DNA from: Stenotrophomonas maltophilia
Lineage (GTDB): Bacteria > Pseudomonadota > Gammaproteobacteria > Xanthomonadales > Xanthomonadaceae
Direction: 5' to 3'
Assembly (NCBI RefSeq): GCF_006970445.1
Contig: NZ_CP033877.1
Coordinates: forward strand, 566,750-630,749
DNA: 64,000 nucleotides
Part shown: positions 6,774 through 41,614 of the stretch, piece after piece
Numbering within the stretch: position 1 is the stretch's first letter
Layout of the letters: each line of letters opens with the position of its first letter
The notes under the pieces: model-generated
Database searches by the model: none
Seen by the model: only the letters and a program-made list of their open reading frames with translations
Told to the model about the DNA's origin: nothing
Position numbers and translations under genes: made by a program

Positions 6774-6780
6774 CGTGCGG

Positions 6781-9276: not shown

Positions 9277-9321
9277 TGCATTGATATTGTTTGTTTTTCG
9301 TTGCGATGAGCATTCAGCCTG

Positions 9322-9545: not shown

Positions 9546-9574
9546 AACGCCCCGTGCCTTGCGGCCGGGGCGTT
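9546..9574 (+). promoter_or_regulatory. Leader hairpin before the YdcH-like gene
   Basis: AACGCCCCG (9546-9554) pairs perfectly with CGGGGCGTT (9566-9574) around an 11-base loop, ending 14 bases before a near-consensus ribosome-binding site (AAGGAGGT, 9588-9595). There is no U run, so it is more likely an RNA-stability or translation-control element than a terminator. Confidence 0.4.
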
Positions 9575-9600
9575 CGTGTATCTGTCGAAGGAGGTCCATC

Positions 9601-9837: not shown

Positions 9838-9935
9838 CGCACCCCGTCGCGCCCGGAACGGCGTGACCCGGCCATCGATGGCCCCGCCGGGCGTTCCTGC
9901 CCCGGCATCGCGGCACCGCCGATGAGGCGGCCGCG

Positions 9936-9964
9936 CCAAGGCACCACAGGCGGTGGTGCCTTGG
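9936..9964. other. Strong hairpin in the gap between the YdcH-like gene and CBS
   Basis: CCAAGGCACCAC (9936-9947) pairs with GTGGTGCCTTGG (9953-9964) around five bases. It lacks a clean U run but may end transcription from the YdcH-like gene. The surrounding 301-base gap (9838-10138) also contains a GGCCATCGATGGCC palindrome near 9871 and the CBS promoter; I see no coding sequence in it. Confidence 0.5.
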
Positions 9965-10067
9965 CCTGCAGGCACAACTCACCGATGCGGGCGGTACCGG
10001 TCTCCTCGTCGATCCGGGGCCGCCCGCATCCCTTTATGGGGCAGGCGGGCGGCATGCCTGCACCGAC

Positions 10068-11509: not shown

Positions 11510-11632
11510 GCCGCTGATCACTGCAGATCGCCACTGAATTCCGGTTTATTTGCGTCAAAGCTTGTTAAGGCTGCGCTGATAGACTCCCGATCCTTTGACG
11601 GCGCCGCACGTCGGCGCCATTCAGGAAACGAC

Positions 11633-23936: not shown

Positions 23937-24744
23937 CGGCAAACCCCCTGCGCGTGCGTTGGAAGAAGGCGAAGCCGGCGATGAAAACCAATGCTGAAAC
24001 CAGTAGGCAGACGGGGTACAGCACCGGGTCCAGGCCCTTGCCCCAGATCAGGACATCTCGCATCTGAGCGACGATCGGCGCCAGTGGATTGATGTTGAGG
24101 AACGGCCGCAGCGAGGCCGGGATCGCGTCGATCGGATAGAAGATGGGGGTCAGGAACATCACCGCGGTGGTGATGATCGCCGTGATCTGTGCGGTGTCGC
24201 GCAGGAACACGCCCAGTGCCGACAGCAGCCAGGCGACGCCGGTCATGAACAGGACCATCGGCAGCATGACCACCGGGGCGAGCAGGGCGGTCACCGGCGG
24301 CAGGCCCGTCGAGACCAGATAGAACAGCAGCCACACCACCAGGTTCACGGCCAGGCTGAACATGGCCGTGAGCACGCTCACCCATGGCAGCACTTCGAGC
24401 GGGAAGACGACCTTTTTCACGTAGTTCGCGTTGCCCACGATGAGGGTGGGAGCGCGGTTGAATACTTCCGAGAACAGGTTGAACACCAGCAGGCCACTGA
24501 ACAGGACCAGGGCGAACTCGGTGCGCGAGCCGCTGCCACCGGGCCAACGCGCCTTGAAGACCTCGCTGAACACGAAGGTGTAGATGGCCAGCATGAAAAT
24601 TGGCTGCACCAGCGCCCAAGCCAGTCCCAGCAGGGACCCCCGGTAGCGGGCTGCAATTTCTCGGGCGGCCAAGGCTACGACCAAGCCGCGATTATGGCGC
24701 AGGCTGCGCAGTAGATGCAGCGGGGAACTGGGGTAGGCTTCCAT
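23926..24744 (-). CDS. wzm: O-antigen ABC exporter permease
   Basis: A 272-residue ABC-2 type permease with about six transmembrane segments. The N-terminal amphipathic stretch REIAARYRGSLLGLAWALVQP is the classic polysaccharide-exporter signature, and PIFYPIDAIPASLRPFLNINPLAPIV is the conserved periplasmic-side region. It forms the channel with Wzt. It follows GtrA by 72 bases on the same strand, and its stop lies within the start of wzt. The presence of Wzm/Wzt means the main chain is made by the ABC-dependent route rather than by Wzx/Wzy. Confidence 0.93.
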   Translation of the reverse strand: MEAYPSSPLHLLRSLRHNRGLVVALAAREIAARYRGSLLGLAWALVQPIFMLAIYTFVFSEVFKARWPGGSGSRTEFALVLFSGLLVFNLFSEVFNRAPTLIVGNANYVKKVVFPLEVLPWVSVLTAMFSLAVNLVVWLLFYLVSTGLPPVTALLAPVVMLPMVLFMTGVAWLLSALGVFLRDTAQITAIITTAVMFLTPIFYPIDAIPASLRPFLNINPLAPIVAQMRDVLIWGKGLDPVLYPVCLLVSALVFIAGFAFFQRTRRGFADVL

Positions 24745-24816: not shown

Positions 24817-25218
24817 TCAATCGACCCCGCGGCGTGCGAATGTGAAGTGTTTGTGACCGAGATAAGCCGTTACGATCGGGACGGCTACGCCGACCAGATG
24901 GGCGCTCAGTGGGATATCCAATGGCCACGACAGTGCAGGCAGGGCCCAGCGCTTGAGAACGATGCTGATGCCCAAGGTCTGCAGCAGGCTGATTGCGTTG
25001 ATGCCGACGAACCAGGCGACCTGCTGTGCGATAGGCCGGTTCGAACCCTTGAACACCAGGACTCGATTGAGGATGAAAGCCGTCAGCATGCCCAGCCCAT
25101 AGGCAAGGCAGACCGCCACCTCGAAAGGGAAAGCAAGGCTGAACAGGACGCGGCTACCGACATTGACCGCCGCCGCAGTGCCACCACAAATAACAAACAG
25201 GAGGAACTGGCGACTCAT
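24817..25218 (-). CDS. GtrA-family small membrane protein, candidate lipid-linked sugar flippase
   Basis: A 133-residue protein with four transmembrane helices (FLLFVICGGTAAAVNVGSR, AVCLAYGLGMLTAFILNRVLVF, VGINAISLLQTLGISIVL, VGVAVPIVTAYLGHKHFTF). The N-R-x-x-V-F and GHKHFTF motifs are diagnostic of GtrA. GtrA proteins are thought to flip polyprenyl-phosphate-linked single sugars to the periplasm. It is translationally coupled (ATGA) to the large membrane protein upstream and lies in the same series as the DprE-like genes, so it is a natural partner for a lipid-linked pentofuranose. Confidence 0.88.
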   Translation of the reverse strand: MSRQFLLFVICGGTAAAVNVGSRVLFSLAFPFEVAVCLAYGLGMLTAFILNRVLVFKGSNRPIAQQVAWFVGINAISLLQTLGISIVLKRWALPALSWPLDIPLSAHLVGVAVPIVTAYLGHKHFTFARRGVD

Positions 25219-27101
25219 GCCTGCGTCTCTCGGTGGCGATTGGCTGCGCCGGATACGGCGGCGATCAGCATCATGAGGGTCAGCACCAGGGCGATGTACA
25301 GGCCGGGGCCGCAACGTTCTTCTGCTACGACGCGAAACTGGGTAAGACGGCCCGCTTCGATCGGCGGTGTTACCGCGACCCAGCCGTGGGGATCGTTGTC
25401 CACGATATGCAATTGGTACTCATCCGCAGGCAGATCCAGCAGACGCGGCCTCCAACGATCGCCGGCTACGCCTTGGGTCACCAATTCTATGGTGTGTTGC
25501 TTGCCGACCAGGGTGGCGGCCACCCCTGGTGGCCCGTAGCCACCCTGGAAGTACAGCATCCTGCCGCCCTTCACCAGCACCGGCGCACTGCTGCAGTCGA
25601 TGATGTTGGCGTCGCCGCCATCGACAAGATAAGTACCGATGGCCTGTGGACGGTTGGGCAACCCCGCGAAGGCGCCGGGGTGCTCCAGTCCGCTGCAGTG
25701 GTCCGTCGGGAACGCCAATGGCCGGCGAATCTCGATGGGCATGATGGAAGCTGCGTCTGAGCGGCTCAGGACGTGATCGATGCGTTCGGCGTCTGGATAG
25801 GGGAAGCGACCGGGGGTGTCGCGCAGCGCGTCGAGATCACCATCGCGCAGGTAGGTCGCCAGTATCTTTTCCTGCATGGCGCCAGCAATCGAGCGCTCCT
25901 GCATGCTGCCCTTGGCGGCGACGAAGGTCGGGAACGAGGAAAGCGCGATCCAGCCGATGAATACCGCAGGTACTGTGGTGCGACCCCATGAAGGGAGCCG
26001 CGATCCATTGCCGAAGCAAGCGTGCAGTACCAGCCACAGGTTGTTGATCACACCGATGGCCAGCAGGTCGGTGTAGCGCGAGGTCACCACGTTGTGCACC
26101 TCTGTGCCCCGCGAGTAGGCCATGGCTACGGCCTGCACCAGCACCCAACCTGCGACTGCGAAAGCGAAACGCTCTCCCCGCGAAATGCTCTGTCGGGTCA
26201 GCGTGCGGCGCAGCATTGCGAGGGTAAGAGCGACCGTCGGCAGCCAAAGCACCGCTACGCTGATCCAGCGCGGTCGCAACGGCCAGGCAAGGGTATTGCG
26301 CAGGGCCTCCAGGAACTGGCCGATGGAACGAGCATGGAAGGTGTCGCCATGTGGTGGTGCGGGAAGGGTCACAAGACCCACGACGGTGACCGCCAGCATC
26401 AGAAACAGGGCAAGACCGCCCCTACGGCGGTCAACATCAGCGGCGAGCAGGCGATAAACGAGCAGACCCGCCGCTGCCGCAGCGGCAAAGATACCGCTGG
26501 CCATGGTGAACAGGGCGAGTACCGAGCAGATCAGAATGGCCAGCAGGCGCCTGCGATCCAGTACCTCAGCCGATGCCAGCCAGATGGTGATCAATGACAG
26601 AAGTGCCAGGATGAAGAACTGGTTCTGGAACCCAGCGATCAGATTTTCCCAGCCGAAAGGCGCAGAGGCCAACGCAAAAATGCCCAGGATGAGGAACGGA
26701 CGGGCAGCGGGCACCAGCGTACGCATGCCGACCCAAGCCATAGTGCCCAACGCGGCCGCGTACGGGACGATGTTGAACAGCATTTCCACCTTGGCATCGA
26801 ACTGGTTCCCATTGGCTGCAAACAAGCCGAGTGAAACAAGCCGTGTGAAAAGAATGCGGTGTTCATTGTGTGCCGCGAACAACTGGCTGAAGTGGAGCTC
26901 GCCCCGCAGATAAGGCAACAACAGGTTGTCGAGCTCGGCATCCCATTGGTCCCAGAACGGACTGCTGCTGCCGAAACGGAGCACCAGATAGGCGCGCACG
27001 GCCATCATCGGGACCAGCAGGATGGCCAGTAGGAACACCGGGTGCTGCGGATGGAACCACTGCAACAATCGGGTACGCACGGCACCTGATCTGGGGGTCA
27101 T
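25215..27101 (-). CDS. Large multi-pass membrane protein, possible GT-C type glycosyltransferase
   Basis: A 628-residue protein not assigned to a named family by eye. About ten transmembrane helices occupy residues 20-410, followed by a soluble C-terminal domain of about 180 residues and a final helix. The first extracytoplasmic loop carries PFWDQWDAELDNLL and AAHNEHRILFTRLV, and a later loop PFGWENLIAGFQNQFF and MASG. These are shared with the protein at 41615-43003, so the two are paralogues. An acidic first loop after helix 1 is what GT-C enzymes use for catalysis with lipid-phosphate sugar donors. It overlaps both its neighbours by four bases, tying it to GtrA and the FAD enzyme. Confidence 0.75.
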   Translation of the reverse strand: MTPRSGAVRTRLLQWFHPQHPVFLLAILLVPMMAVRAYLVLRFGSSSPFWDQWDAELDNLLLPYLRGELHFSQLFAAHNEHRILFTRLVSLGLFAANGNQFDAKVEMLFNIVPYAAALGTMAWVGMRTLVPAARPFLILGIFALASAPFGWENLIAGFQNQFFILALLSLITIWLASAEVLDRRRLLAILICSVLALFTMASGIFAAAAAAGLLVYRLLAADVDRRRGGLALFLMLAVTVVGLVTLPAPPHGDTFHARSIGQFLEALRNTLAWPLRPRWISVAVLWLPTVALTLAMLRRTLTRQSISRGERFAFAVAGWVLVQAVAMAYSRGTEVHNVVTSRYTDLLAIGVINNLWLVLHACFGNGSRLPSWGRTTVPAVFIGWIALSSFPTFVAAKGSMQERSIAGAMQEKILATYLRDGDLDALRDTPGRFPYPDAERIDHVLSRSDAASIMPIEIRRPLAFPTDHCSGLEHPGAFAGLPNRPQAIGTYLVDGGDANIIDCSSAPVLVKGGRMLYFQGGYGPPGVAATLVGKQHTIELVTQGVAGDRWRPRLLDLPADEYQLHIVDNDPHGWVAVTPPIEAGRLTQFRVVAEERCGPGLYIALVLTLMMLIAAVSGAANRHRETQA

Positions 27102-28399
27102 GCGCGCAGCGCCTCGTTCACCAGGGCCTCGGCCGTGTTGATGCTCTCGTTGATCGAGCGATCTTCAGGGTAGTAATACGCAGTGTCGGCCATGAAGAAG
27201 CCCTGCACCGGCGTGCGCATCGACGGCAGCATCTCCTGGAAGCCCGGCGGACAGATCGTCTGCGCGAACTCATAGCGATGGCAGTGCGAGGCCAGCACCC
27301 AGTCACGCTCGAAGGCTGGGTTGATCCGCGCCAGGTAGCCCAGCACTTCCTCGATCAGCTCGGCGTTGGACTGCTGCCACTTCGGGTGGGTCTTGGGCAT
27401 GTAGTACGGCGCGTACAGGATCTTCTGGTCCGGGTCGTGGCCCGGGTTGAGGTTGCTGTACTCGATCACGCCCGGGATCTCGATGCCCGGATCGCTGATG
27501 TTCATCCAGAAGTTTTCGCTCACCGCGTGCTTGAGCTTGAGGATCACGCAGGCGACGGGAATGTTCTGCACCGCCGCGACCTTGGCGCGGAAGTCCTCCG
27601 GCAGCCCCGGCACCAGCGCCGGCACGTACTGGATGGGTGCGGTGGAGATCACGCCGTCGTAAGCGGTGAATTCGCCGCCCACCGATACACCGCTGACCTT
27701 GCCGTTCTCGGACACTACTTCATCGATGCCCTGCGACAGCTCGATACGGCCGCCGCGCGCCTGGATGTCCTGCACCATGCGTTCCAGCAGCGTCATCGAG
27801 CCCCCTTCCAGGTAGCCCATGCTCTCGTTCATCAGGTTGCGGCGGGACAGTGCCACGCGCTTGATGCGCGTGCCGATCCAGCTGGCCGACAGGTTGTCCT
27901 TGAACTCGAAGAACTTCAGGCGGAAGGCATCCTTCCACATCACGTCATAGGCCTTCTGGCCGACCCAGCGCCGGATCCATGCGCCGGCCTCTTCCTTGTC
28001 CAGCGCCGTCCAGTCCTTGATGCCCTTGGTGTACATCACGTGCAGCGCATAGCGGAACTTGCTGATCGGCCCAAGGTGGGGGAAGGCCAGCAGTGCAAAC
28101 GGGTTGCCCCACTTGTAGAGCTTTCCCTTGTAGAAATAGCCCATCTTGGTGTCGGTCCAGCGCAGCGCCTTGGACAGGCCGTAGCGCTCCAGCAGCGCGA
28201 AGAGCGGATAGTCGGTCTTGCAGATGAAGTGGTAATAGCGCTCGATCGACAGACCGTCGAAATCGAAGTTGGCCGACATGCCGCCAATGCGATCGTCACG
28301 CTCGTAGATCGTGACCGAACGGCCCTGGTCGAGGAGTTTCACGGCGGCCATCAGGCCCATGGGGCCTGCGCCGATGATGGCAAATCGCTTCTGGGTCAT
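27098..28399 (-). CDS. FAD-dependent oxidoreductase (NAD(P)-binding-like, amine oxidase/UGM-like)
   Basis: A 433-residue flavoprotein. The N-terminal dinucleotide fold is clear (FAIIGAGPMGLMAAVKLLDQG, then YERDDRIGGMS), and the C-terminal FAD motif FFMADTAYYYPEDRSINESINTAE closes the domain. The internal FDFDGLSIERYYHFI and LYKWGNPFALLAF regions resemble desaturase/amine-oxidase-like enzymes seen in O-antigen and carotenoid loci, and more loosely UDP-galactopyranose mutase. The reaction cannot be named. ATG 28399 is preferred; the longer frame to 28924 runs into the upstream gene. It is coupled to the large membrane protein downstream. Confidence 0.82.
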   Translation of the reverse strand: MTQKRFAIIGAGPMGLMAAVKLLDQGRSVTIYERDDRIGGMSANFDFDGLSIERYYHFICKTDYPLFALLERYGLSKALRWTDTKMGYFYKGKLYKWGNPFALLAFPHLGPISKFRYALHVMYTKGIKDWTALDKEEAGAWIRRWVGQKAYDVMWKDAFRLKFFEFKDNLSASWIGTRIKRVALSRRNLMNESMGYLEGGSMTLLERMVQDIQARGGRIELSQGIDEVVSENGKVSGVSVGGEFTAYDGVISTAPIQYVPALVPGLPEDFRAKVAAVQNIPVACVILKLKHAVSENFWMNISDPGIEIPGVIEYSNLNPGHDPDQKILYAPYYMPKTHPKWQQSNAELIEEVLGYLARINPAFERDWVLASHCHRYEFAQTICPPGFQEMLPSMRTPVQGFFMADTAYYYPEDRSINESINTAEALVNEALRA

Positions 28400-28409
28400 G
28401 GCAATCGTA

Positions 28410-30566
28410 TCAATGGAAGGAAGTGGGGAGCGCCGTGAGACGGCACTCCGGGCGCGTGGCGAACAATTCGTACGCGGGGCTGTGGTAGATGTGCAGGGTA
28501 CCGGTCGGGACGTCGTTGAAATCCGAGGCGATTCTGCCAATGCGGATAAATGACTGATCCATCTGGGAATAATAGCGCCTTGACCAGTCGTCGTTGAACG
28601 AGGTGCCGATGAACAGCACACAGTCCGTCGATGGTGGCGGGAGGTCCATGCCCAATACCTGGGGGTAAGTGATGACCTCGGTGCGTACGGCGCCCACTTC
28701 CGCGGCGATGCCCTGCAGTCGGTCGGTGCGTTCATCCAGTATCTGCTGCAGGTGGATGCGGTCGAAATAGGGGGCCAGTCGGGCGCTGACCGACATGCCC
28801 CAAGCGCCTGCCAGTACCAGCAGCCCCATGCAGGCCAGGTGCAGCAGCCTGCGGGCCAAGGGGCGCTGCAGCGCGAGGCGGGCCGCGGCGAACCGCTCGA
28901 TGTTGGCAGCGCCAGCCACGGCAACCATCATGAAGGCTGGTATCAATGCGGTCAGATTGCGTTCGAAGAACACCGACTGGACCAGGAAGGCGCCAAACGT
29001 AATGGCGAAGACCGCCAGGAAGCCGGCCTTGGCTGGTGCCAGCGAGGTGCGGAAGTAGCCCATCACATGCAGCACCACCAAGGGCAAGCCGAGGGTGGCC
29101 AGGTAGTAACCGGTGATCCAATGCCATTGCGGAACCAGCCCGTGCGTCATCGGCCCAAACGGGGGATGGCCCCCGCCGTACTGGTGGTCCAGCGCCTGGA
29201 TGCCCGCCAGGAATCCGGGAAGGTCAGCCACGATGGCCGGTGAACCGACGCAGATGCCGAAGACAACACCTGCCAGCGATGCGCCGCCGAACATGCCAAG
29301 ATGCTGGAGCTTCCGCGTCAATCCCGGTAACTGGCGTACAGGCTGCCATGCGGCAGCGACGCAGTACAGGCTGAAAACGGCATAGGTGAACTTTATGGTC
29401 GTCAGCACGCCAGCCAACATGCCCAGAAGGGCCAGGAGGCCGAACTGGGCCCAGCGTTGCTGAGGCTTCAGGCATGCGAGCGCGAACGCCAGCGTTGAGA
29501 GCAGCGTGCTCCATGCCTCTGGCCGGGCGTAATGCGCGTCCTGCAGGAATTGGGGGGTGGTCGCGACCAGAAGCACCCCGACCAGCGCATAACCAACACC
29601 CAACGTACGTACGAGCAGCAGGAGGCAGACTGCCAAGGTGAGGGCGGCGGACCAGCGCGAGAATTCGAGCAGGTAGTGCAGCAGGTCGAATTCGCTTTTG
29701 AATGCCGCTGGTGCAATCGCCTTGATGGTCAGGTAGACCGCTTGAATGTACCCGGAGAAGTTGTAGCGGAATGCATGGAACTCAGGAAGGTCAGCGCGAG
29801 CCCAATCGGTATTCAGATCGCCATGTTCATGCATGGCGACCATGACTTTCACCGGAATGGATTGGTCAGGATGATGCCAGACACCAGCGACGTCGCCCTG
29901 GTAGAGCTTCGCGGCCAGCAGTGCTACCGATGCAGCCAGAAGAACCAGTGAAACGGTGCGGCGGACAGGTGTTTTCCTGGGAGGTGTAGGCACGCCTTCG
30001 CTCCGTGGGGGCGGCAGAGCGAGCGCACTCAGCAGGATGCTGGCCAACAGCAGTGACATGATCGGAATGCCCAGACGCCCAGGCTCGGGCAGCATGCCAA
30101 TGCCCGCCCACTGCTGGAATCCAGTCCCTTGGTCATCCAGGACCACGCGCAGGGGCCGTCCCGCCCAACTCTGCGGCACCCGGATGTTCAACGGCTGCCA
30201 TTGCTCGCCCGCACGCTGGATCACATACAGTGATTCCTCATCATCCTCCAAGGCGATGCGCAGGCGTACTGCGTGTCCATCGATGTAGCCGGCCACCGCC
30301 AGTCGTGGGCGCATGGCGTGGTTGGCAGGCAGTCGCAGTTCGATCGTGCCACGCGCTTCGTCGCCGTTTGCGCAGTAGGTGATGGCGGCATGGTGGATGT
30401 CCGGATCGGCACGCAGGAACGACGATGCCGACGACGGGCAGCCACCCTTGGGGGCTGTAGCGCCCATTGGGAGCTCCGATACCGGCGGTCGGATCCACAG
30501 CAGCAACGCCACAAGCAGGCATGCCGCAGCCAGTCCCTGGCCCAGATACCAGCGTCCTTCCCGCAC
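28410..30566 (-). CDS. GT-C type membrane glycosyltransferase (ArnT/PMT-like)
   Basis: A 718-residue protein with an N-terminal helix, a periplasmic domain of about 140 residues (ELRLPANHAMRPRLAVAGY..., WQPLNIRVPQSWAGRPLRVVLDD), then about eleven transmembrane helices. After the second helix comes GVWHHPDQSIPVKVMV, matching the H-P-D-E/Q signature of dolichyl-phosphate-mannose and ArnT-type transferases; QDAHYARPEAWSTLLS is the matching conserved block. Such enzymes use polyprenyl-phosphate sugars in the periplasm. It starts at GTG 30566, three bases after the epimerase stop, making it the likely consumer of the lipid-linked sugar made by the DprE-like genes upstream. Confidence 0.8.
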   Translation of the reverse strand: MREGRWYLGQGLAAACLLVALLLWIRPPVSELPMGATAPKGGCPSSASSFLRADPDIHHAAITYCANGDEARGTIELRLPANHAMRPRLAVAGYIDGHAVRLRIALEDDEESLYVIQRAGEQWQPLNIRVPQSWAGRPLRVVLDDQGTGFQQWAGIGMLPEPGRLGIPIMSLLLASILLSALALPPPRSEGVPTPPRKTPVRRTVSLVLLAASVALLAAKLYQGDVAGVWHHPDQSIPVKVMVAMHEHGDLNTDWARADLPEFHAFRYNFSGYIQAVYLTIKAIAPAAFKSEFDLLHYLLEFSRWSAALTLAVCLLLLVRTLGVGYALVGVLLVATTPQFLQDAHYARPEAWSTLLSTLAFALACLKPQQRWAQFGLLALLGMLAGVLTTIKFTYAVFSLYCVAAAWQPVRQLPGLTRKLQHLGMFGGASLAGVVFGICVGSPAIVADLPGFLAGIQALDHQYGGGHPPFGPMTHGLVPQWHWITGYYLATLGLPLVVLHVMGYFRTSLAPAKAGFLAVFAITFGAFLVQSVFFERNLTALIPAFMMVAVAGAANIERFAAARLALQRPLARRLLHLACMGLLVLAGAWGMSVSARLAPYFDRIHLQQILDERTDRLQGIAAEVGAVRTEVITYPQVLGMDLPPPSTDCVLFIGTSFNDDWSRRYYSQMDQSFIRIGRIASDFNDVPTGTLHIYHSPAYELFATRPECRLTALPTSFH

Positions 30567-30569
30567 GCG

Positions 30570-31514
30570 TCAACGCTCCAGTACGATCTTCGCGTAGCGC
30601 GGATCGGTGTAGCTCTCGCGAATTGCTTCTTCAAACGGCGTCTGCTTCACGCCGAACACGGCATCAGTGTCGATGCCCTTGAAGTCATCGCCGGCACTGA
30701 GTGCCTTCAGCTGGTCGGCGGTGAAGGGCGGTTTGCTGCTGAACAGGCTGTAGACCTTCAACAGGAAGCCGAAGAAGCCGATCGGGATGTGCACGATCAC
30801 CGTATGCAGCTTCTTGACCCGCTTGATGGTGCGGATGATGTCCACGTAATCCACACGGGTATCGCCGACGATGTCGAAGACCTCGCCGTCCGGTTCGGTT
30901 TCGATGCACTTGGCGATGCAGCGGCAGAAGTCGCGTTCATACAGGGGCTGGCGCATGAACTTGCCATCGCCCGGGATCGGGAATACGGGCGTGCGTGCCA
31001 TGAAACGCGACAACCAACCCAGGTGCTTGGGGTCGAACCAGCCGAACATCAGTGTCGGGCGCAGCACGCAGTGGCGCTGGCCGCTGGCGACCACCATCTC
31101 CTCCTGTTCGCGCTTGGTATTGGTGTAATCGTCCTTGGCGACCGAATTCACCACCGACGAGCTGATGTGCACCATGTAGGGCACAGCGGCATCCTGGGTC
31201 GCCTTCAACACATGGCCGGTGGCCGTGATGTTGTTGCGGACGAACAGGTCGGTGGTCTTGCCGGTGATCTGCGCGTGCAGCTGCACCACGCAGGCGGCAC
31301 CGTTGAATTCACCGGCCCACGCGCCAGGTTCAGCCAGGTCGGCTTTCACCACGCGGACATCCGGATGCAGGCCGTGCAGGATATCCAGGTTGTGGGCATG
31401 CTTGTCGATGGCGACCAGCTGGGTGTAACCCTGCTGCTTGAGCTCGACGATCAGGTTCTGCCCCACCAGGCCGGCAGCACCGGTGATGACGATCTTGGCG
31501 TGCTTGTCGGTCAT
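30570..31514 (-). CDS. NAD-dependent epimerase/dehydratase family protein
   Basis: A 314-residue extended SDR. The Rossmann glycines are in ITGAAGLVGQN, the Ser of HISSSVVNS and YTNTKREQEE supply the catalytic Ser-Tyr-Lys, with Tyr and Lys four apart. FGWFDPKHLGWLSRF, DGKFMRQPLYERDF and the C-terminal SSKPPFTADQLKALSAGDDF resemble 3-beta-hydroxysteroid dehydrogenase-like or sugar-modifying epimerases. A TM-like stretch near 245-260 (VIVHIPIGFFGFLLKVYSLF) suggests membrane association. It is one base downstream of the DprE2-like gene and three upstream of the GT-C gene, so it may act on a lipid-linked sugar. Confidence 0.82.
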   Translation of the reverse strand: MTDKHAKIVITGAAGLVGQNLIVELKQQGYTQLVAIDKHAHNLDILHGLHPDVRVVKADLAEPGAWAGEFNGAACVVQLHAQITGKTTDLFVRNNITATGHVLKATQDAAVPYMVHISSSVVNSVAKDDYTNTKREQEEMVVASGQRHCVLRPTLMFGWFDPKHLGWLSRFMARTPVFPIPGDGKFMRQPLYERDFCRCIAKCIETEPDGEVFDIVGDTRVDYVDIIRTIKRVKKLHTVIVHIPIGFFGFLLKVYSLFSSKPPFTADQLKALSAGDDFKGIDTDAVFGVKQTPFEEAIRESYTDPRYAKIVLER

Positions 31515-31515
31515 G

Positions 31516-32247
31516 TCAGAGCTTGATCCTGCGGAAGACGAATTCGGGGATGTTCTTGATGATCATCATGATGGCCCACCAGAAGCCGGGCAGGTAGGCA
31601 ACGGCCTTGCGCTTGCCGATCGCCTTGAGGATGCCGGCGGCGACCTTGTCCGGTGTCGCCCACAGGGCGCCCTTCTTGAACGCGGCGGTCATCGGCGTAT
31701 CGACGAAGCCGGGCTTGATGATCAGTACGTTGATGCCAGCCGGACGCAGGCGCTGGCCCAGGCCGCTCAGGTAGGCGGTGACCGCTGCCTTGGCGCTGCC
31801 GTACAGGTAATTGCTGGCGCGGCCGCGATCACCGGCCACCGAGGAAATGACGGCCAGGCTGGCACCGGACTGCAGGCGCTGTGCCAGGGCCGCTGCAAGG
31901 GCGATGGTCGAGGTGCCATTGGTGGCAAACTCGCGCAGCGATAGATCCACCGAGGCATCGCAGTCAGCCTGGTCAGGCAGGGTGCCGTGGGCGATCAGGA
32001 CGGTATCGATGCCGCCCAGCGCGGCCCATGCGTTGTCCAGGAGGGCGCCGTGGGCGGCCACATCGTTCACGTCCAGCACGCCGCTGTGCACGTGCGGGGC
32101 ACCGCGCACGCGCAGGTCGGCGGCAATGGCGTCCAGCTTGCCGGCACTGCGACCCACCAGGTAGAGCGCGGCGCCACGTGCGGCGTATAGGCGCGCAACC
32201 GATTCGGCGATGGCCGAGGTCGCGCCGATGATCAGGATCTTCTGCAT
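31516..32247 (-). CDS. Short-chain reductase, DprE2-like (polyprenylphosphoryl-2-ketopentose reductase)
   Basis: A 243-residue classic SDR. It has the cofactor loop IIGATSAIAESVA, catalytic Ser in AVISSVAGDRG, and Tyr/Lys in YLYGSAKAAV; PGFVDTPMTA follows. The opening GATSAIAE and the C-terminal KGKRKAVAYLPGFWW-like region with a short amphipathic tail are features of DprE2. In mycobacteria DprE2 reduces the 2-keto intermediate made by DprE1, completing conversion of decaprenyl-phospho-ribose to -arabinose. Here it lies two bases after the DprE1-like gene, so the same two-step epimerisation is expected on an undecaprenyl carrier. Confidence 0.85.
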   Translation of the reverse strand: MQKILIIGATSAIAESVARLYAARGAALYLVGRSAGKLDAIAADLRVRGAPHVHSGVLDVNDVAAHGALLDNAWAALGGIDTVLIAHGTLPDQADCDASVDLSLREFATNGTSTIALAAALAQRLQSGASLAVISSVAGDRGRASNYLYGSAKAAVTAYLSGLGQRLRPAGINVLIIKPGFVDTPMTAAFKKGALWATPDKVAAGILKAIGKRKAVAYLPGFWWAIMMIIKNIPEFVFRRIKL

Positions 32248-32249
32248 GG

Positions 32250-33563
32250 TTACTCCATCACCCGGCGCCAGAAGCCGGATGAGAATCGAGGGTCGATGAA
32301 GCGGGAGAAGGCTTCCCAGGCCGGGTAGGCCTGGCGGAACAACGCGCCGGACATGCGCGCGTCCTTGGCCGCGTACACAGCACCGCCGGCTTCGCTGACG
32401 ATGCGGTCCAGGCGGTCGAGCATCTTCAACAGCTCGGGACCGTCATTGGGGAAATCCAGCGCCAGGGTGGTACCCGGGCGCGGGAAGGAGAGCAGCCCCG
32501 GCGAGGGCCGGTCGCCGAATTCCTTCAGTACCGCCAGGAACGAACCGCGCCCGCTGCGGGCAATTTCGCCCAGCAGCGCAGCGGTGGCGTCGCGCGCGGT
32601 GGCCGGCGGCAGCACGCACTGGTGCTGCAGGAAGCCGCGCGGGCCGTACATGCGGTTCCAGTGGTTGATGCCGTCCAGCGGATAGAAATAGCTCTGGTAG
32701 TGCGATACGTGGCGGGCCCGGCGAGCCGGCTGGCGCCAGTAGTACAGCGTGTTGAACGGACGCAGGGTCAGTGGATTGACCAGTGATACCGGCGGCACGA
32801 TGGGCATGCTGCGGCGAGGGGCCGAACTGGGCGTGGCCGCGTGGGCGTCGCCTGGTGCATGATCGCCGCGCAGGAAATGCCCGCGACCAAGCGCTCGGCC
32901 CTTGGCCAGGCAGTCGATCCAGGCAACGGTGTACTCGAAATCAGTGGCCGACTCGCGCGACAGCGCGAAGAACTCGTCCAGGTTGTCGAAACGGATCGAC
33001 TCGGTTTCGATCCAGGGGCCTGGTACCCGACGAAGCTGCAGCTCGGCCCAGGTGATGAAGCCGGTCAGGCCCAGCCCACCTGCGGTGGCGGCGAACAGGC
33101 CGCTGCTGTCGTCCGGCGTGAGCTGCTGGCGCGAACCATCGCTGCGCAGCAGTTCAAGGCGCAGCACGTGGTGGCAGAACGTACCTGCGCGATGGTGGTT
33201 CTTGCCGTGCACGTCGTTGCCGATTGCGCCGCCCACGGTCGCGTAACGGGTGCCCGGGGTGACCGGCAGGAACCAGCCGCGCGGCAGCGCGATGTCCAGG
33301 ATGTCGGCCAGGGTCACCCCTGCCTCGCAGCGCACGATGCCCGCGGCCGGATCGAAATCGATGAAACGGTCAAGGGCGCGGCTGGTCAGCAGGGTCGCGC
33401 CTGGGTTCAGGCAGCTGTCGCCGTAACTGCGCCCGTTGCCGTGGGGCAGCACAGTGCCGCCCTCTGCGGGCAGCGGCAGGGCAGCAGCGCGGTCGAGCAC
33501 CGGAAGGATCCGCTGCTCTACCCGCGGGTAGCGCCCCCAGGACTGGCCAACCGCTGCACTCAT
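32250..33563 (-). CDS. FAD-linked oxidase, DprE1-like (polyprenylphosphoryl-ribose 2-oxidase)
   Basis: A 437-residue VAO/PCMH-type flavoprotein. The FAD loop HGNGRSYGDSCLN and RCEAGVTLADIL, GTRYATVGGAIGNDVHGKNHH are diagnostic and match DprE1 closely; YGPRGFLQHQ, LALDFP and YAAKDARM align with the substrate-binding half. Lys400 in AAKD matches the active-site lysine of DprE1. The position of mycobacterial Cys387 (in NICVDF), target of benzothiazinones, is Ala368 here. ATG 33563 overlaps the UbiA gene by four bases; an upstream start at 33590 is possible. It should oxidise C2 of a polyprenyl-phosphate pentofuranose before DprE2-like reduction. Confidence 0.87.
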   Translation of the reverse strand: MSAAVGQSWGRYPRVEQRILPVLDRAAALPLPAEGGTVLPHGNGRSYGDSCLNPGATLLTSRALDRFIDFDPAAGIVRCEAGVTLADILDIALPRGWFLPVTPGTRYATVGGAIGNDVHGKNHHRAGTFCHHVLRLELLRSDGSRQQLTPDDSSGLFAATAGGLGLTGFITWAELQLRRVPGPWIETESIRFDNLDEFFALSRESATDFEYTVAWIDCLAKGRALGRGHFLRGDHAPGDAHAATPSSAPRRSMPIVPPVSLVNPLTLRPFNTLYYWRQPARRARHVSHYQSYFYPLDGINHWNRMYGPRGFLQHQCVLPPATARDATAALLGEIARSGRGSFLAVLKEFGDRPSPGLLSFPRPGTTLALDFPNDGPELLKMLDRLDRIVSEAGGAVYAAKDARMSGALFRQAYPAWEAFSRFIDPRFSSGFWRRVME

Positions 33564-34975
33564 ATGGCAATCAGGACGATCAGCACGCACAGTGCGATGA
33601 CGATCTGGCTGCCGCGGTCCATCGCCGCGAACACGATCGGGTCGTCATGCATGTCGCCCCGGTGCGAGACGATCCACATCCGGCTGATCCAGTACAGCAG
33701 GATCGGGCACAGCAGCCACAGCAGCTTGGGACTGGTATACAGCTCCAGGCTTTCCGGGCTGTTGATGTACAGCGCGAAGACCGCGACGCCGATGTAGCCG
33801 GCGGCCGCGCCCAGCGACTGCACCAGCGGCAGGTCGGCCACCGAGTAGCCTCGGCCGATCGCCATTTCCTTGCCGCTGGCCAGTGCCGAGGCCAGTTCGG
33901 TATAGCGCTTGAGCATGGCCAGGCTGAGGAACACGAACATCGAGAACGCCAGCAGCCAGAACGACAGTTCAGAGTTGATCGCCACCGCGCCGCCGATGAT
34001 GCGCACCGTGTACAGCGCCGCCAGCATCACCACGTCGATCATTACAATGCGCTTGAGCTTGAGCGAGTAGCTCAGGGTCATCACGTAGTAGCACAGCAGC
34101 ACGCCCGCGAAGGCCGGGCTGCAGGCCAGCGCCAGGGCGAAGCCGGCCAGGGTGATCAACGGCGCCACCAGCAGGCCATGCAGCAGCGGCAGCGTGCCCG
34201 CGGCAAATGGGCGCTTGCGCTTGCGCGGATGCATCCGGTCTGGGGTCAGGTCCAGCAGATCGTTGAGCAGATAGACGCCTGACGCGCACAGACCGAAGGC
34301 CAGGAAGGCCGTGCCTGCATCGATGATCGAGGTGAGATCGAAGAAGCGGTGGGCAGTCAGTAGCGGTACCAGCACCAGCAGGTTCTTCAGCCACTGGTAG
34401 ACGCGCAACGCCTTGATCCAGGTGATCAGACCGCCGTTCTGAGAGGGCAGGTGGGCAAGCACTTCGGTCTGCTTCGCCGCAGCACTGGCCAGCCCGGCCC
34501 CGTTGTTGACCACGATCGCGCCGCCAGCATGGGCCCAGACCTTCAGGTCGACCGTGCCGTTGCCCATGTAGTCGAAGCCTCGTTCGCCAAAGCGCGCTGC
34601 CAGTGCCTGCCCCTTGTTGCTGCCGGACAGGTTGGTCTGGCCATCGCTGGCCATCACTTCCTCGAACAGTCCCAGATGGTCGGCGATGGGCTGGACCAGC
34701 AGGCGGTCGGAGGCGGTGCACAGCACGCGGGGGCGTTGGGTGGTGGTGCGCAGTATGTCCAGCACCCGCTCGTCGTAGGGCAGTGTTTCGGCGGGCAGCT
34801 TCACGCGGGAGGCCAGCTGCCGCTTTACGTAGGCTTTGCCCCGCAGCAGCCAGAACGGCACCAGGAACAGGTACAGCGGGTTGTGGGCCAGCAGGGCCAG
34901 CAACGATTCGTACAGGATGTCCGAGCGGAGCAGGGTGCCATCCAGATCGACGCATAGGGCACGAGAAGAGGTCAC
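33560..34975 (-). CDS. HAD hydrolase-UbiA prenyltransferase fusion (polyprenyl-phosphate phosphoribosyltransferase-like)
   Basis: A 471-residue fusion. Residues 1-190 are a HAD phosphatase: D10-L-D12-G-T nucleophile motif, CTASD as motif II, and FDYMGNGTVDLKVW as the acidic motif IV region. Residues 200-471 are a UbiA prenyltransferase with about eight helices and both Asp-rich motifs: LNDLLDLTPDRMHPRKRKRPFAAG and SYSLKLKRIVMIDVV. That first motif closely resembles the mycobacterial enzyme that joins phosphoribosyl diphosphate to decaprenyl phosphate (Rv3806c). The HAD part could then remove the 5-phosphate. GTG 34975 is taken as start because TSSRALCVDLDGT follows; ORF-like codons upstream to 35149 are unsupported. 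A 14-codon frame (ATG 35016) ends over this GTG and may couple translation. Confidence 0.85.
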   Translation of the reverse strand: MTSSRALCVDLDGTLLRSDILYESLLALLAHNPLYLFLVPFWLLRGKAYVKRQLASRVKLPAETLPYDERVLDILRTTTQRPRVLCTASDRLLVQPIADHLGLFEEVMASDGQTNLSGSNKGQALAARFGERGFDYMGNGTVDLKVWAHAGGAIVVNNGAGLASAAAKQTEVLAHLPSQNGGLITWIKALRVYQWLKNLLVLVPLLTAHRFFDLTSIIDAGTAFLAFGLCASGVYLLNDLLDLTPDRMHPRKRKRPFAAGTLPLLHGLLVAPLITLAGFALALACSPAFAGVLLCYYVMTLSYSLKLKRIVMIDVVMLAALYTVRIIGGAVAINSELSFWLLAFSMFVFLSLAMLKRYTELASALASGKEMAIGRGYSVADLPLVQSLGAAAGYIGVAVFALYINSPESLELYTSPKLLWLLCPILLYWISRMWIVSHRGDMHDDPIVFAAMDRGSQIVIALCVLIVLIAI

Positions 34976-35087
34976 AGCCGAGGTGCCTCGTCGCAGAAGG
35001 CGGCATGGTTCTGCATGTAGGTACTTTTTCGCACGGATGAAATCATCCTGAATGATAAGGGAACCATGTTGAGCGCGCAGCCATGGA

Positions 35088-36068
35088 TCAGGGCGCGGGA
35101 CGTGGCCTGGCGGCCAGCTCCAGGCGTGCCATGGCCAGCATGCCGACAACGACCGCCAGCCACAGGCTGACCAGCCGGATGCCGATGGCCACGGTCAATG
35201 CAGCGTCCACCTCGACCCCGGAAGCGCCGAGCATCAGCACGATGGCCGCCTCGGTGGTCCCTACGCCACCAGGGACGAGGGACAGTGCGCCGATCAGCAT
35301 GGCCAGCGGATAGATGCTCAGCATCAGCAGCCAGGGCAGACTGATGCCCATGGCCTGACATAGCAAGGTAAAGGCCAGGGCAGTCAGCAGCCACGCCGCT
35401 CCGCCCTGCAGGGCGGAGCGAAGCAGCAGGCGCCAGCACAGCAGTGGGTCGAGCGCGCGGGTGCCAGCGATCAGGAAATGGCCAAGTCGGCGTACCGGCG
35501 AGCCCGGAAGGTACTCGATGAGACGATGCGCGCCGCGAGCAAGAGGTGGCCAGCAGGCCAGCAAACCGAGGATCAGAAGGACTCCCAGAATGATGGTGGC
35601 CAGCACGCCGAACGCAGGGATCATGTGGGCCGCACCGATAGCCAGTACGGTGATCACCAGCAGATCCAGTGCGCGCTCGAAGATGAATGTCGCCAAGGTG
35701 GCACCAGCCGGTACGCCTTGCCAGCCGAAGTAACGGATACGGAGCAGTTCACCTGCCTTGCCAGGCGAAGCGGTGAAGGCGAAGCCGGCGAGGTAGGCCA
35801 AGGCGCCAAGGCGCCAGCCTTGCAGTCGCAGCCCCTGCGCGGAGAGCGCCGATCGCCAGCGCTGGTAGCGGAAGGCATAGCTGACCAGTACCAGCCCGGC
35901 GCAAAGGGCCAGAGTGCCGTTGAGGTTGCTCAGCTGCGCGAGGATGTTGCGCTCGCGGTCGATGTACCACAGTGCAGCGAGATATGCAGCCGCAATGGCG
36001 ACGACCCATGAGCCTGCGCGCCCCCGGCGCACCGGCTTTACCGGCGCCGGGGACGAGCAGTCCGTCAT
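35088..36068 (-). CDS. LPG synthase transmembrane-family protein (UPF0104/AglD-like), candidate flippase
   Basis: A 326-residue integral membrane protein with about eight helices. It carries the family motifs [30 protein letters not shown], and [14 protein letters not shown]. Members are fused to LPG synthases or stand alone and are linked to flipping or translocating lipid-linked molecules; AglD is an example in archaea. ATG 36068 shares a base with the etfA stop (TAATG), so it is read through from etfBA. Downstream comes the UbiA/HAD gene after a 112-base gap, the widest interruption in the series. Confidence 0.83.
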
Positions 36069-37006
36069 TACAGCGCCTGTTCCAGCTCGGGCAGGATCGC
36101 GAACAGATCCCCCACCAGGCCGATATCGGCAATCTCGAAGATGGGCGCGTCGCCATCCTTGTTGATCGCGACGATCGTGCCAGCATCCTTGATGCCGGTC
36201 AGGTGCTGGATCGCACCGCTGATGCCTACGGCCACGTACAGTTCCGGCGCGATGATCTTGCCAGTCTGGCCGACCTGCAGGTCGCTGGGCACGTAGCCGG
36301 CATCGACCGCGGCGCGCGAAGCACCGACGGCGGCACCGAGCTTGTCGGCCAGCTGGAAGATGACCTTGAAGTTCTCTTCCGAACCGACACCACGGCCACC
36401 GGAGACCACGCGCTTGGCGCTCTGCAGGTCCGGGCGGTCGCTGGCGCCAGCGGCGAGGCCGACGAAGCGGGTGTGGGTCGGCAGGGCAGCATCGACGCTG
36501 GCCGCTTCGATGGCGGCGCTGCCGCCCTGGGCGGCTTCCGGCCACGACGCGGCACGCACGGTGGCGACCACGATCTGGTCGGCCGGGGCTTCCACGGTGA
36601 TGATCGCGTTGCCGGCGTAGATCGGGCGCTTGAAGGTGTGGCTGCCTTCAACGCTCATCAGGTCGGAGACCTGGTTGACGCCGAGCAGGGCGGCCACGCA
36701 CGGCATCAGGTCCTTGCCGAAGGTGGTCGACGGGCCGAACACGTGGGTGTAGCCCTTGGCCAGCTGCGCGATCTGCGGCGCCAGCACCTGGGCGATGGCC
36801 TGCGCATTGGCAGCGTTGGCCACGGTAAGGACCTTGGCGACGCCGGTGATCTTCGCGGCCTCGGCGGCAACGGCGGCCGGGTCGGCGGCCAGCACCAGCA
36901 CGTCGATGCTGGCACCGCTGATGGCGGCAGCAGCGCTGACGGTCTTGGCGGTAGCGGCGTTGAGCTTGCCGTCGTGGTGCTCGGCGATGACGAGAATCCT
37001 GCTCAT
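36068..37006 (-). CDS. etfA: Electron transfer flavoprotein subunit alpha
   Basis: A 312-residue FAD-binding subunit. The C-terminal domain carries the FAD motif [12 protein letters not shown], then [46 protein letters not shown], the most conserved signature of the family. With EtfB it passes electrons from acyl-CoA and related dehydrogenases to ETF-quinone oxidoreductase in the membrane. It overlaps etfB by one base. In Xanthomonas the stretch between metB and etfA is the highly variable lipopolysaccharide locus; here the same two genes bracket 23 kb of surface-sugar genes. Confidence 0.96.
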
Positions 37007-37933: not shown

Positions 37934-38016
37934 GACGGGGGACATGTATGCTGTGCCGCTGTGCGGGAGCGCCCAAGTGCGCCCCATGGATGACATTTCG
38001 ATCAGGAGAACAGGTA

Positions 38017-39072
38017 GTGCCCACATGGCTTGTCACCGGCGGCGCCGGATTCATTGGCGGTAATTTCGTCCTCGAAGCCGTCGCCCGCGGCATCAAGGTC
38101 GTTAACCTTGATGTGCTGACGTACGCCGGCAACCTGAAGACTCTGTCCAGCCTGGAGGGCAACCCCGACCACGTGTTCGTGCAAGGCGACATCGGCGACC
38201 GTGATCTGGTCGCCCGCCTGCTGGCCGAGCACCAGCCGGACGCGGTGCTGAACTTCGCCGCCGAAAGCCATGTCGATCGTTCCATCGATGGCCCGGGTGC
38301 GTTCATCCAGACCAACGTGGTGGGCACCCTGGGCCTGCTGGAAGCGGTGCGCGACTACTGGAAGGCGCTGCCGGCCGGGCCGGGCGCCGCCTTCCGCTTC
38401 CTGCATGTGTCCACTGACGAGGTGTACGGCACCCTGGGTGAGACCGGCAAGTTCAGCGAAACCACGCCGTACGCTCCGAATTCCCCGTATTCGGCGTCGA
38501 AGGCCGCTTCGGACCACTTGGTCCGCGCCTTCCACCACACCTACGGGCTGCCGGTGCTGACCACCAACTGCTCGAACAACTACGGTCCGTACCACTTCCC
38601 GGAGAAGCTGATCCCGCTTGTGATCGCCAAGGCGCTGGCCGGCGAGCCGCTGCCGGTGTACGGCGATGGCAAGCAGGTGCGTGACTGGCTGTTCGTGTCC
38701 GACCATTGCGAAGCGATTCGCACCGTGCTGGCCAAGGGCCAGGTCGGCGAGACCTACAACGTCGGTGGCAACTCGGAAAAGCAGAACATTGAGGTGGTGC
38801 AGGCCATCTGCGCGCTGCTGGACCAGCGCCGCCCGCGTGCGGACGGCCAGCCGCGCAGCAGCCAGATCACCTACGTCACCGATCGTCCTGGTCATGACCG
38901 CCGCTATGCGATCGATGCGTCCAAGCTGAAGAACGACCTGGGCTGGGAACCGGCCTACACCTTCGAGCAGGGCATCACCTTCACCGTCGACTGGTACCTG
39001 GACAACCAGGAATGGGTCAACGGCGTGCTCGACGGCAGCTACCGCCTGCAGCGCATCGGCACCGCAGCCTGA
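38017..39072 (+). CDS. rfbB: dTDP-glucose 4,6-dehydratase
   Basis: Second step of dTDP-L-rhamnose synthesis. The 351-residue extended SDR has [12 protein letters not shown] (NAD), [12 protein letters not shown] (Thr-Asp-Glu catalytic triad), and [12 protein letters not shown] (Tyr/Lys). It starts at GTG 38017, eight bases after AGGAG; the frame continues upstream without a site. First gene of the rfbBACD operon, divergent from etfBA. Confidence 0.95.
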
Positions 39073-39086
39073 ATCCAGGAGATCTC

Positions 39087-39974
39087 ATGACCCAGCGCAA
39101 GGGCATCATCCTAGCCGGGGGTTCCGGCACCCGGCTGTATCCGATCACCAAGGGCGTCAGCAAGCAGCTGTTGCCGGTGTACGACAAGCCGATGATCTAC
39201 TACCCGCTCAGCGTGCTGATGCTGGCGGGCATTCGCGAAGTGCTGATCATCAATACCCCGCACGAGCAGGCGCTGTTCCAGCAGTTGCTGGGCGACGGTT
39301 CGCAGTGGGGCATGGACATCCAGTATGCAGTGCAGCCAAGTCCGGATGGCCTGGCCCAGGCCTACCTGATCGGCCGTGAGTTCGTCGCCGGCAAGCCGAG
39401 CTGCCTGGTGCTGGGCGACAACATCTTCCACGGCCACGGCCTGCGCGAGGTGCTGCGCAACGCCGACCAGCGTGACCAGGGCGCCACCGTGTTCGGCTAC
39501 TGGGTGAATGATCCGGAACGCTACGGCGTGGCCGAGTTCGACAGCAACGGCAAGGTCATCAACCTGGTGGAAAAGCCCGAGAATCCGCGCTCCAACTACG
39601 CGGTGACCGGCCTGTACTTCTACGACGGCAATGCCAGCGACTATGCGGCCGAGCTGAAGCCTTCGCCGCGTGGCGAGCTGGAGATCACCGATCTGAACCA
39701 GCACTATCTGCGCGAAGGGCAGCTGCACTTGGAGGCGCTGGGTCGTGGTTATGCCTGGCTGGATACCGGCACGCACCAGTCGTTGCTGGAAGCATCCAAC
39801 TTCATCGAAACCATCCAGACCCGCCAGGGCCTGCAGGTCTGCTGCCCGGAGGAAATTGCCTTCGGCAAGGGCTGGATCAACGCTGAACAGCTGGAAGCAC
39901 TGGCGGCGCCGCTGATCAAGAATGGCTACGGCCAGTACCTGCATAAACTCGCTCTGCGTGGAGTCGTTCCGTGA
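39087..39974 (+). CDS. rfbA: Glucose-1-phosphate thymidylyltransferase
   Basis: First step of dTDP-rhamnose synthesis: joins dTTP and glucose 1-phosphate. The 295-residue protein has the nucleotidyltransferase signature [29 protein letters not shown] start ([11 protein letters not shown]), the VLGDNIFHG metal site and [21 protein letters not shown] Shine-Dalgarno CAGGAG precedes ATG 39087; 14 bases separate it from rfbB. Confidence 0.96.
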
Positions 39975-40528
39975 AAGTGATTGAAACCAAGTTGCCCGGT
40001 TGCGTGGTGATCGAGCCGGCGGTGTTCGGCGATGCCCGCGGTTATTTCTTCGAAACCTGGAATGCCGAGCGCTTCGCTGCGCTGGGCCTGCCGGATCGTT
40101 TCGTGCAGAGCAACGTGTCGACGTCCGCGCAGGGCGTGCTGCGCGGCCTGCATTACCAGTGGCCGCGCCCGCAGGGCAAGCTGGTCAGCGTGCTCGAAGG
40201 CGAGGTCTACGATGTGGCCGTCGACATCCGTCGGGGCTCGCCGACCTTCGGCCAGTGGGAAGCGGTGGTGCTGAGCGCGGAGAACAAGAAGCAGTTCTGG
40301 ATTCCGGAGGGCTTCGCCCACGGTTTCGCCGTGCTGTCCGAGCGTGCGGTCTTCAGCTACCTGTGCACCGAGGTCTACCTCAAGGACTTTGATGCCGGCG
40401 TGCGCTGGAACGATGCCGACATCGCAGTGGACTGGCCGGTCAGCGCACCGACCCTGTCGGCCAAGGACGAGAACGCGCCGTTCCTGAAAGACATCGCGGA
40501 AGACCGTCTGCCGGTCTACGTCGCATGA
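39971..40528 (+). CDS. rfbC: dTDP-4-dehydrorhamnose 3,5-epimerase
   Basis: Third step of dTDP-rhamnose synthesis, epimerising C3 and C5 of the 4-keto sugar. The 185-residue cupin has the RmlC hallmarks [29 protein letters not shown] (with the catalytic His in GLHYQ), [13 protein letters not shown], and [13 protein letters not shown]. It starts at GTG 39971 and overlaps rfbA by four bases. Confidence 0.96.
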
Positions 40529-41415
40529 CGGTGCTGGTGTTCGGCGGCAACGGCCAGGTCGGCCAGGAGCTGCTGCGCGCGCTGGCACCGCTGGGCAAGG
40601 TGGTTGCGACCACCCGCAGCGGAGTCCTGCCCGACGGAAGTGCCTGCGAAACGGCCGATTTCGGCCAGCCCGACTGCCTGCCGGCATTGCTGGACAGCGT
40701 GCAGCCGTCGCTGGTGGTCAATGCGGCCGCCTATACCGCAGTTGATCGTGCCGAGCAGGAGGTCGAAGCTGCCTTCGCTGCCAATGCGCAGGCGCCGGGC
40801 GTGATCGCGCGCTGGTGTGCGGCGCATGGCGTGCCGCTCGTGCATTACTCCACCGACTACGTGTTCGATGGCCAGGGCAGCGCGCCATACCGCGAGGACG
40901 AGCCGACCGCGCCGCTGGGCGTGTATGGCACCAGCAAGCGCGATGGCGAGGATGCGGTGCGCGCTGCCGGTGGCCGTCACCTGATCTTCCGCACAGCGTG
41001 GGTGTATGCATCGCACGGCGCCAACTTCCTGCGCACGATGTTGCGCGTGGGTGTCGAGCGTGACGTATTGCGTGTGGTGGCTGACCAGATCGGTACGCCG
41101 ACGCCGGCGGCGCTGATCGCCGATGTCACCGCGCAGGCACTGCAGCATCCGGGCCAGCTTTCGGGGACCTGGCACCTGACCGCCAGTGGCCAGACCAGTT
41201 GGCACGGTTTTGCCGAAGCGATTTTTGCCGAGGCGCTGGCGACGGGAGTACTGGCCAAGGTGCCGTCGGTTGAAGCGATTGCCAGTTCCGAGTACCCGAC
41301 ACCGGCCAAGCGCCCGGCCTGGTCGGTGCTGGACAACCGTAAGCTGCAGCAGGATTTCGGCATCGTGCTGCCGGAATGGCAGGACGGTCTGAAGCGGGTG
41401 ATCGCACAGTTCTGA
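40525..41415 (+). CDS. rfbD: dTDP-4-dehydrorhamnose reductase
   Basis: Final step: reduces the 4-keto group with NAD(P)H to give dTDP-L-rhamnose. The 296-residue SDR shows VFGGNGQVGQEL (cofactor loop), VNAAAYTAVDRAEQE, YSTDYVFDG, and YGTSKRDGED (Tyr/Lys). ATGA overlap with rfbC. A terminator follows 33 bases after the stop, closing the operon. Confidence 0.96.
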   Translation: MTVLVFGGNGQVGQELLRALAPLGKVVATTRSGVLPDGSACETADFGQPDCLPALLDSVQPSLVVNAAAYTAVDRAEQEVEAAFAANAQAPGVIARWCAAHGVPLVHYSTDYVFDGQGSAPYREDEPTAPLGVYGTSKRDGEDAVRAAGGRHLIFRTAWVYASHGANFLRTMLRVGVERDVLRVVADQIGTPTPAALIADVTAQALQHPGQLSGTWHLTASGQTSWHGFAEAIFAEALATGVLAKVPSVEAIASSEYPTPAKRPAWSVLDNRKLQQDFGIVLPEWQDGLKRVIAQF

Positions 41416-41476: not shown

Positions 41477-41614
41477 CGCGCTGTGCAACGTTTCGAACCA
41501 GGCATTGCTGAGCGTGAGTACGCGCGAATCCGGTGCTGCTGAACTACCATGCGCAGCTGGATTCTCCCGCGCAGTGCGTCGAAGCTGCTGCGCTTGTACC
41601 TGAAAGGACGCTCC

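Follow-up and report, generated by a model that had tools for sequence, protein, structure and literature searches.

Which sugar is made by an operon in the O-antigen locus of Stenotrophomonas maltophilia that combines homologues of the arabinofuranose (Araf) enzymes UbiA, DprE1 and DprE2 with an extended short-chain dehydrogenase/reductase (SDR, here called EPI), an FAD enzyme and the candidate flippase GtrA? The operon lies on the minus strand at 24817-36068 of a 64,000-nucleotide stretch of contig NZ_CP033877.1 (positions 566,750 to 630,749), the whole of which we call the window and to which coordinates refer unless another locus is named. An earlier note on this DNA had proposed that the cell makes a lipid-linked pentofuranose and decorates its O-polysaccharide or pilin with it. 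Our analysis adds a defined unit, EPI-FAD-GtrA, atop UbiA-DprE1-DprE2, and we consider it probable that the operon extends the periplasmic pentofuranose pathway already published (Kelly et al. 2024, PMC11127046) and serves an ABC-exported O-polysaccharide.

Results

The core enzymes are recognizable homologues of known ones. HAD-UbiA (33560-34975, GTG start), a predicted polyprenyl-phosphate phosphoribosyl synthase with a fused phosphatase, scored 677 bits in a profile search against PRK08238 (cut-off 351) and matched the Rv3806c structure 8j8j at 4e-28. The ND-x2-D-x3-DR motif attributed to it by the earlier note was found as NDLLDLTPDR, and a second motif, RYTE, was also present, the N, D, D, D and R, E residues being spaced as reported for Citrobacter ORF15 (PMC11127046). 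The HAD domain (PF12710, 1.5e-6) has a DLDGT motif close to the N terminus, and a search of the phage collection with the UbiA protein gave no match at E 1e-20. The DprE1-like FAD oxidase (32250-33563) is homologous over its full length to solved DprE1 (4aut, 8e-76, residues 32-443) and conserves HGKNHH; in the alignment it has ALDFP where solved DprE1 has CVDFP, a change to Ala of the Cys that is the benzothiazinone target. The DprE2-like SDR reductase (31516-32247) scored 320 bits against PRK07102 (cut-off 267). Because all three proteins fell below their NCBIfam equivalog cut-offs (373 bits against 500 for the DprE1-like protein and NF053785, 177 against 250 for the DprE2-like protein and NF053786, and 157 against 207 for HAD-UbiA and the Rv3806c type), we regard them as homologues and not as equivalog members; the earlier assignment of the trio thus stands as homology, with key UbiA residues in place, but not at the level of the equivalog families.

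EPI (30570-31514) was classed as an extended SDR epimerase/reductase from its PF01370 match (5e-18) and its GAAGLVG and YTNTK motifs. The FAD enzyme (27098-28399) is of the PRK07233 type, with an amine oxidase/phytoene desaturase fold; it scored 516 bits against NF005560 (cut-off 252), and many of its invariant residues are Arg, Trp and Tyr. These two proteins are extra to the known arabinose module, which bears out the earlier description of the present one as larger.

EPI and this PRK07233-type enzyme hardly ever occur apart, and GtrA follows them. Our first sample comprised 52 of 60 UbiA places listed in 369 Gammaproteobacteria genomes, the other eight, which were set aside, being the window's own, another in G076 and six that fell below the family cut-off (G234, G119, G282, G108, G350 and G185); contig ends shorten some loci. 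UbiA stood alone in 22 of the 52 loci, and DprE1 occurred without EPI in 23 (19 with DprE2, 3 without DprE2, and 1 with DprE2 and GtrA). DprE1, DprE2, EPI and the FAD enzyme were found together in seven loci, six of which also had GtrA, and neither EPI nor the FAD enzyme was found singly above 200 bits in any of the 52 (Fisher's test: EPI with the FAD enzyme, p 7e-9; EPI-FAD pair with DprE1, p 0.016). Below the 200-bit threshold, L031 has an EPI-like fragment adjoining DprE2 (6569-6946, 101 bits), perhaps a relic of an EPI-FAD pair, and L055 has a protein distantly similar to amine oxidases (47 bits).

The second sample came from an EPI alignment scan of named genomes, in which at least 410 relatives were confirmed and the best 80 kept; several of its incomplete loci are short contigs. 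All six genes (UbiA, DprE1, DprE2, EPI, FAD enzyme and GtrA) were present in 64 of the 80 EPI loci, which is more than chance; the full set is carried, for instance, by the environmental Paraburkholderia xenovorans LB400 (L157) and Aquitalea pelogenes (L101). Five others had only EPI, the FAD enzyme and GtrA, four lacked only UbiA, and two lacked UbiA and DprE1; single loci had UbiA, EPI, FAD enzyme and GtrA (L100), UbiA, EPI and FAD enzyme (L113), all but GtrA (L149), UbiA, DprE1, DprE2 and EPI (L102), or DprE2 and EPI (L108). The FAD enzyme was thus found in 78 of 80 loci and the EPI-FAD-GtrA combination in 76, on the same strand with EPI upstream of the FAD enzyme in 75 of these, the median distances along the row being 6 and 0 bases from open reading frames (ORFs) whose starts are possibly over-long. 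Across 90 full loci, pairwise distances agreed closely between EPI and the FAD enzyme (r 0.87) and among UbiA, DprE1 and DprE2 (r 0.80-0.85), and less so across the two blocks (r 0.45-0.70). There were 16 EPI loci with no UbiA match above 200 bits; ten of their genomes were searched whole, and nine had a UbiA-type match elsewhere, above the family cut-off in four. A DprE1-like match was likewise found in each of the seven genomes whose EPI locus has no DprE1, and in the carriers L116 and L157, searched as controls. EPI is the last gene of its row in L102 (3472-4410) and L108 (999-1937), adjoining rimP and nusA.

EPI was detected in 39 of 326 Xanthomonadaceae genomes and in 12 of 299 sampled genomes of the Burkholderia anthina family. 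All 20 of the loci opened (9 of the 39 and 11 of the 12, respectively) had both EPI and the FAD enzyme, and all except L214 and L215 had UbiA (18 of 20). EPI at 638 bits or more occurs in 8 of 37 Stenotrophomonas-type genomes, the window's own included, and the named proteins among its 120 closest relatives are mostly from Stenotrophomonas; in the genus of G582, a candidate from the Burkholderia-family sample, 5 of 60 genomes carry it. The EPI-FAD-GtrA unit with UbiA-DprE1-DprE2 was also seen in records labelled Proteobacteria, Chlorobi, Campylobacterota and others. The EPI-FAD pair is a real, widespread unit. The EPI-FAD-GtrA unit is undescribed in the titles and abstracts of the literature searched, and Figs S11 and S12 of PMC11127046 may show the gene order.

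The operon is tightly packed in the order, coordinates and spacings that the earlier note gave from ORF coordinates. A PF03706 (LPG_synthase_TM) flippase-like protein, identified by Pfam profile (35088-36068), is followed after 112 bases by UbiA, which overlaps DprE1 by 4 bases; DprE2 follows after 2 bases, EPI after 1 and GTC1 (28410-30566) after 3. The extent given earlier holds for the genes as far as 28410 but cut off three module genes that continue the operon to 24817: the FAD enzyme, 10 bases past GTC1, then GTC2 (25215-27101) and GtrA (24817-25218), the last two junctions being 4-base overlaps. The predicted structure of GTC1, which has a tentative CBM35-like N-terminal domain, matches GT-C structures, so that GTC1 is a predicted GT-C transferase, and GtrA matched PF04138 (1e-15); the grouping of the trio with a GT-C enzyme and GtrA was correctly recognized by the earlier note. 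GTC2, a multi-pass membrane protein and GT-C candidate, gave no Pfam or PDB match, and its family recurs in 33 of the 80 EPI loci (the best 80 of at least 410 relatives). The PF03706 protein, a second flippase candidate, may lie outside the module, its gene being missing beside UbiA in many relatives. In L075 and L076, the FAD enzyme gene is flanked by two GtrA-like genes, and a GTC3-like gene occupies the position of GTC2.

The surrounding locus is bounded by a Cys/Met-metabolism pyridoxal phosphate enzyme on one side and by etfAB on the other; in xanthomonads, a variable lipopolysaccharide locus is sited between metB and etfA. Within it are genes for the O-polysaccharide ABC exporter, Wzm (23926-24744) and Wzt with a C-terminal domain (22620-23942), both on the minus strand and matched as a pair by PF01061, PF00005 and PF14524, as well as manB, manC and, on the plus strand, rml genes for dTDP-L-rhamnose (37948-41415, by Pfam), rhamnose being the likely backbone sugar. 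GTC3 (41549-43003, plus strand) is a relative of GTC2 outside the operon (32% identity over 424 columns). Because the etfA stop and the PF03706-gene start overlap at 36066-36070 (TAATG), transcription may run from etfAB into the module operon. A single long ORF (19678-22728) has FkbM methyltransferase, GT2-like and GT4-like stretches, and its product is possibly a chain-building or chain-ending enzyme. A 1064-aa ORF at 6781-9975 has a type II/IV secretion ATPase stretch (residues 746-959), and the actual gene within it is probably shorter.

Discussion

The closest prototype, absent from the earlier note, is the Citrobacter ORF12-ORF15 system, in which periplasmic pentofuranose addition uses a HAD-UbiA protein, a flippase and a GT-C enzyme (PMC11127046). 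In C. youngae O1/O2, these are the PPPRS ORF15, the flippase ORF14 and the GT136 enzyme ORF12, with ORF13 as epimerase; the ORF15 reaction, the GT-C transferase and the SDR turning ribofuranose (Ribf) into xylofuranose (Xylf) have been demonstrated, and DprE1/E2 homologues have been tied to Araf-bearing glycans. Because of these reactions and the Araf link, the core of the module is of a known kind. The window and C. youngae have in common a HAD-UbiA protein that agrees in domain order and in residue spacing, a GT-C enzyme, SDR enzymes, and export of the O-polysaccharide by an ABC transporter, with Wzm/Wzt, manB and manC. The window differs in having DprE1/DprE2, EPI and the FAD enzyme, two or three GT-C candidates, and, as flippase candidates, GtrA together with the PF03706 protein, neither of which is of the ORF14 kind.

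The mycobacterial decaprenyl-phospho-arabinose pathway (Rv3806c, Rv3807c, DprE1, DprE2, Rv3789 and Emb/Aft) shares with the window homologues of UbiA, DprE1 and DprE2 and the GT-C transferase fold, whereas in the window the HAD phosphatase is fused to UbiA, the equivalog cut-offs are missed, EPI and the FAD enzyme are extra, and the likely acceptor is a Gram-negative O-chain. Arabinofuranosylation of Pseudomonas pilin is alike in that a UbiA-type synthase leads to lipid-linked Araf in a Gram-negative organism (PMC11127046), but in the window the setting is an O-antigen locus with Wzm/Wzt, and EPI and the FAD enzyme are present; with that location, and with no pilin family among the scanned operon genes, pilin is not favoured as the acceptor. 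Although GtrA also belongs to the GtrA-GtrB-GtrC glucosylation cassette, there was no match to PF00535 (GT2, the GtrB-type synthase) among the operon proteins at 24817-36068.

In the extended pathway that we propose, the DprE1 and DprE2 homologues would, judging by homology, invert C2 to give lipid-linked D-arabinofuranose, which EPI and the FAD enzyme would jointly convert to a further pentose; we infer this second step because the two are paired and depend on the DprE1/DprE2 step. The chemistry we prefer is a redox epimerization by flavin oxidase and SDR, like that of DprE1 with DprE2. From fold and context, GtrA, perhaps with the PF03706 protein, would flip the lipid-linked pentose, and GT-C enzymes (of the GTC2 type, GTC1 or both) would add it in the periplasm to the O-chain. 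Lipid-linked Araf being the most likely substrate of the EPI-FAD pair, the end sugar is probably other than plain Araf. The earlier proposal that a lipid-linked pentofuranose is made and put on the O-polysaccharide is thus supported by homology, with a GT-C enzyme present and Wzm/Wzt in the locus, but Araf itself is doubtful as the end product.

One could argue that the end sugar is nonetheless D-Araf and that EPI and the FAD enzyme act on some other substrate in the operon, since UbiA, DprE1 and DprE2 are enough for Araf and occur without EPI, FAD enzyme and GtrA in 19 of 52 UbiA loci (20 if L060, which has GtrA, is counted). We find this unlikely, as in the first sample the pair appears only alongside DprE1/DprE2 (7 of 7), and EPI-FAD loci split from DprE1 still share their genome with a DprE1-like gene (7 of 7). 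It is similarly improbable that EPI, as a counterpart of the C3 epimerase ORF13 of Citrobacter, converts Ribf to Xylf or Araf to D-lyxofuranose (Lyxf), with the FAD enzyme acting separately and two donors perhaps feeding two GT-C enzymes. ORF13 is indeed an SDR converting Ribf to Xylf (PMC11127046), EPI has SDR motifs, and the module has two GT-C and two flippase candidates; however, ORF13 needs neither DprE1/E2 nor an FAD partner, EPI is in none of the 22 UbiA-only loci, and Lyxf is, according to PMC11127046, in no solved structure. The UbiA-adjacent SDR of L037 scores just 37 bits with the EPI profile, although as a stand-in it may not be ORF13. A role for the FAD enzyme in tailoring the lipid carrier, acting on the polyprenyl chain instead of the sugar, is very improbable: its invariant Arg, Trp and Tyr residues suit a charged sugar-phosphate head, and such a role gives no account of EPI as its constant partner. 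The L037 SDR gene (10643-11692) lies 8 bases from UbiA in a locus that lacks DprE1, possibly an ORF13-like system, and the UbiA-only loci yielded two UbiA-adjacent SDR candidates in 22 by a motif search prone to miss many.

Several observations weigh against the extended pathway. The product of the module is predicted from its genes, the DprE1 and DprE2 homologues miss their equivalog cut-offs, and GTC2, a GT-C candidate, gave no match in the PDB. The p values are optimistic because the genomes are not independent. Five of the nine UbiA matches from whole-genome searches are below the family cut-off, as are all nine DprE1 matches (the seven genomes, L116 and L157), and the DprE1 search also gives matches in 3 of the 14 well-known genomes searched as controls. 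L112 has GtrA on the opposite strand. The EPI-FAD pairing is also not absolute, because L102 and L108, both metagenome-assembled genomes, carry EPI with no FAD enzyme found genome-wide.

As to which pentose results, inversion of D-Araf at C3 gives D-lyxofuranose, which according to PMC11127046 no solved structure contains, and inversion at C4 gives the L-xylo configuration. A specific but rather unlikely idea is that the six-gene module makes L-xylose for bacterial surface polysaccharides and that this sugar is added to L-rhamnan O-chains in the periplasm. The FAD enzyme and EPI would then invert C4 of lipid-linked D-arabinofuranose, either by a mutase-like furanose-pyranose change with a C4 epimerase or by oxidation at C5. 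We know of no described origin of L-xylose in these polysaccharides. A partially L-xylosylated L-rhamnan has been reported from Xanthomonas campestris pv. begoniae, and in Ralstonia solanacearum part of the repeats are reported to carry a terminal beta-L-xylose, as the pyranose (PMC10450222); the minor O-chain of Xylella, reported with D-xylose, is neutral. The rml genes in the window match the idea of an L-rhamnan acceptor. A UGM-type mutase would be appealing for pyranose L-xylose, but the sequence and fold of the FAD enzyme do not single out UGM, which is absent among the first 50 Foldseek matches listed, and the enzyme is not especially close to the mutases that an L-xylose route would favour. 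No strain found in this analysis combines the module with an established L-xylose structure; Ralstonia was in none of the seven plasmid records matching EPI at E 1e-60, nor among the named rows, a minority, of the 120 listed relatives of the G582 EPI.

The published pathway covers Ribf, Xylf and Araf side chains, and PMC11127046 left open the meaning of "more elaborate" systems in Xanthomonas and a Bacillus, which have several candidates for the epimerase or the GT-C enzyme. If it is true that EPI and the FAD enzyme make a new lipid-linked pentose, genes would be named for a surface sugar, and there would be two enzymes to assay.

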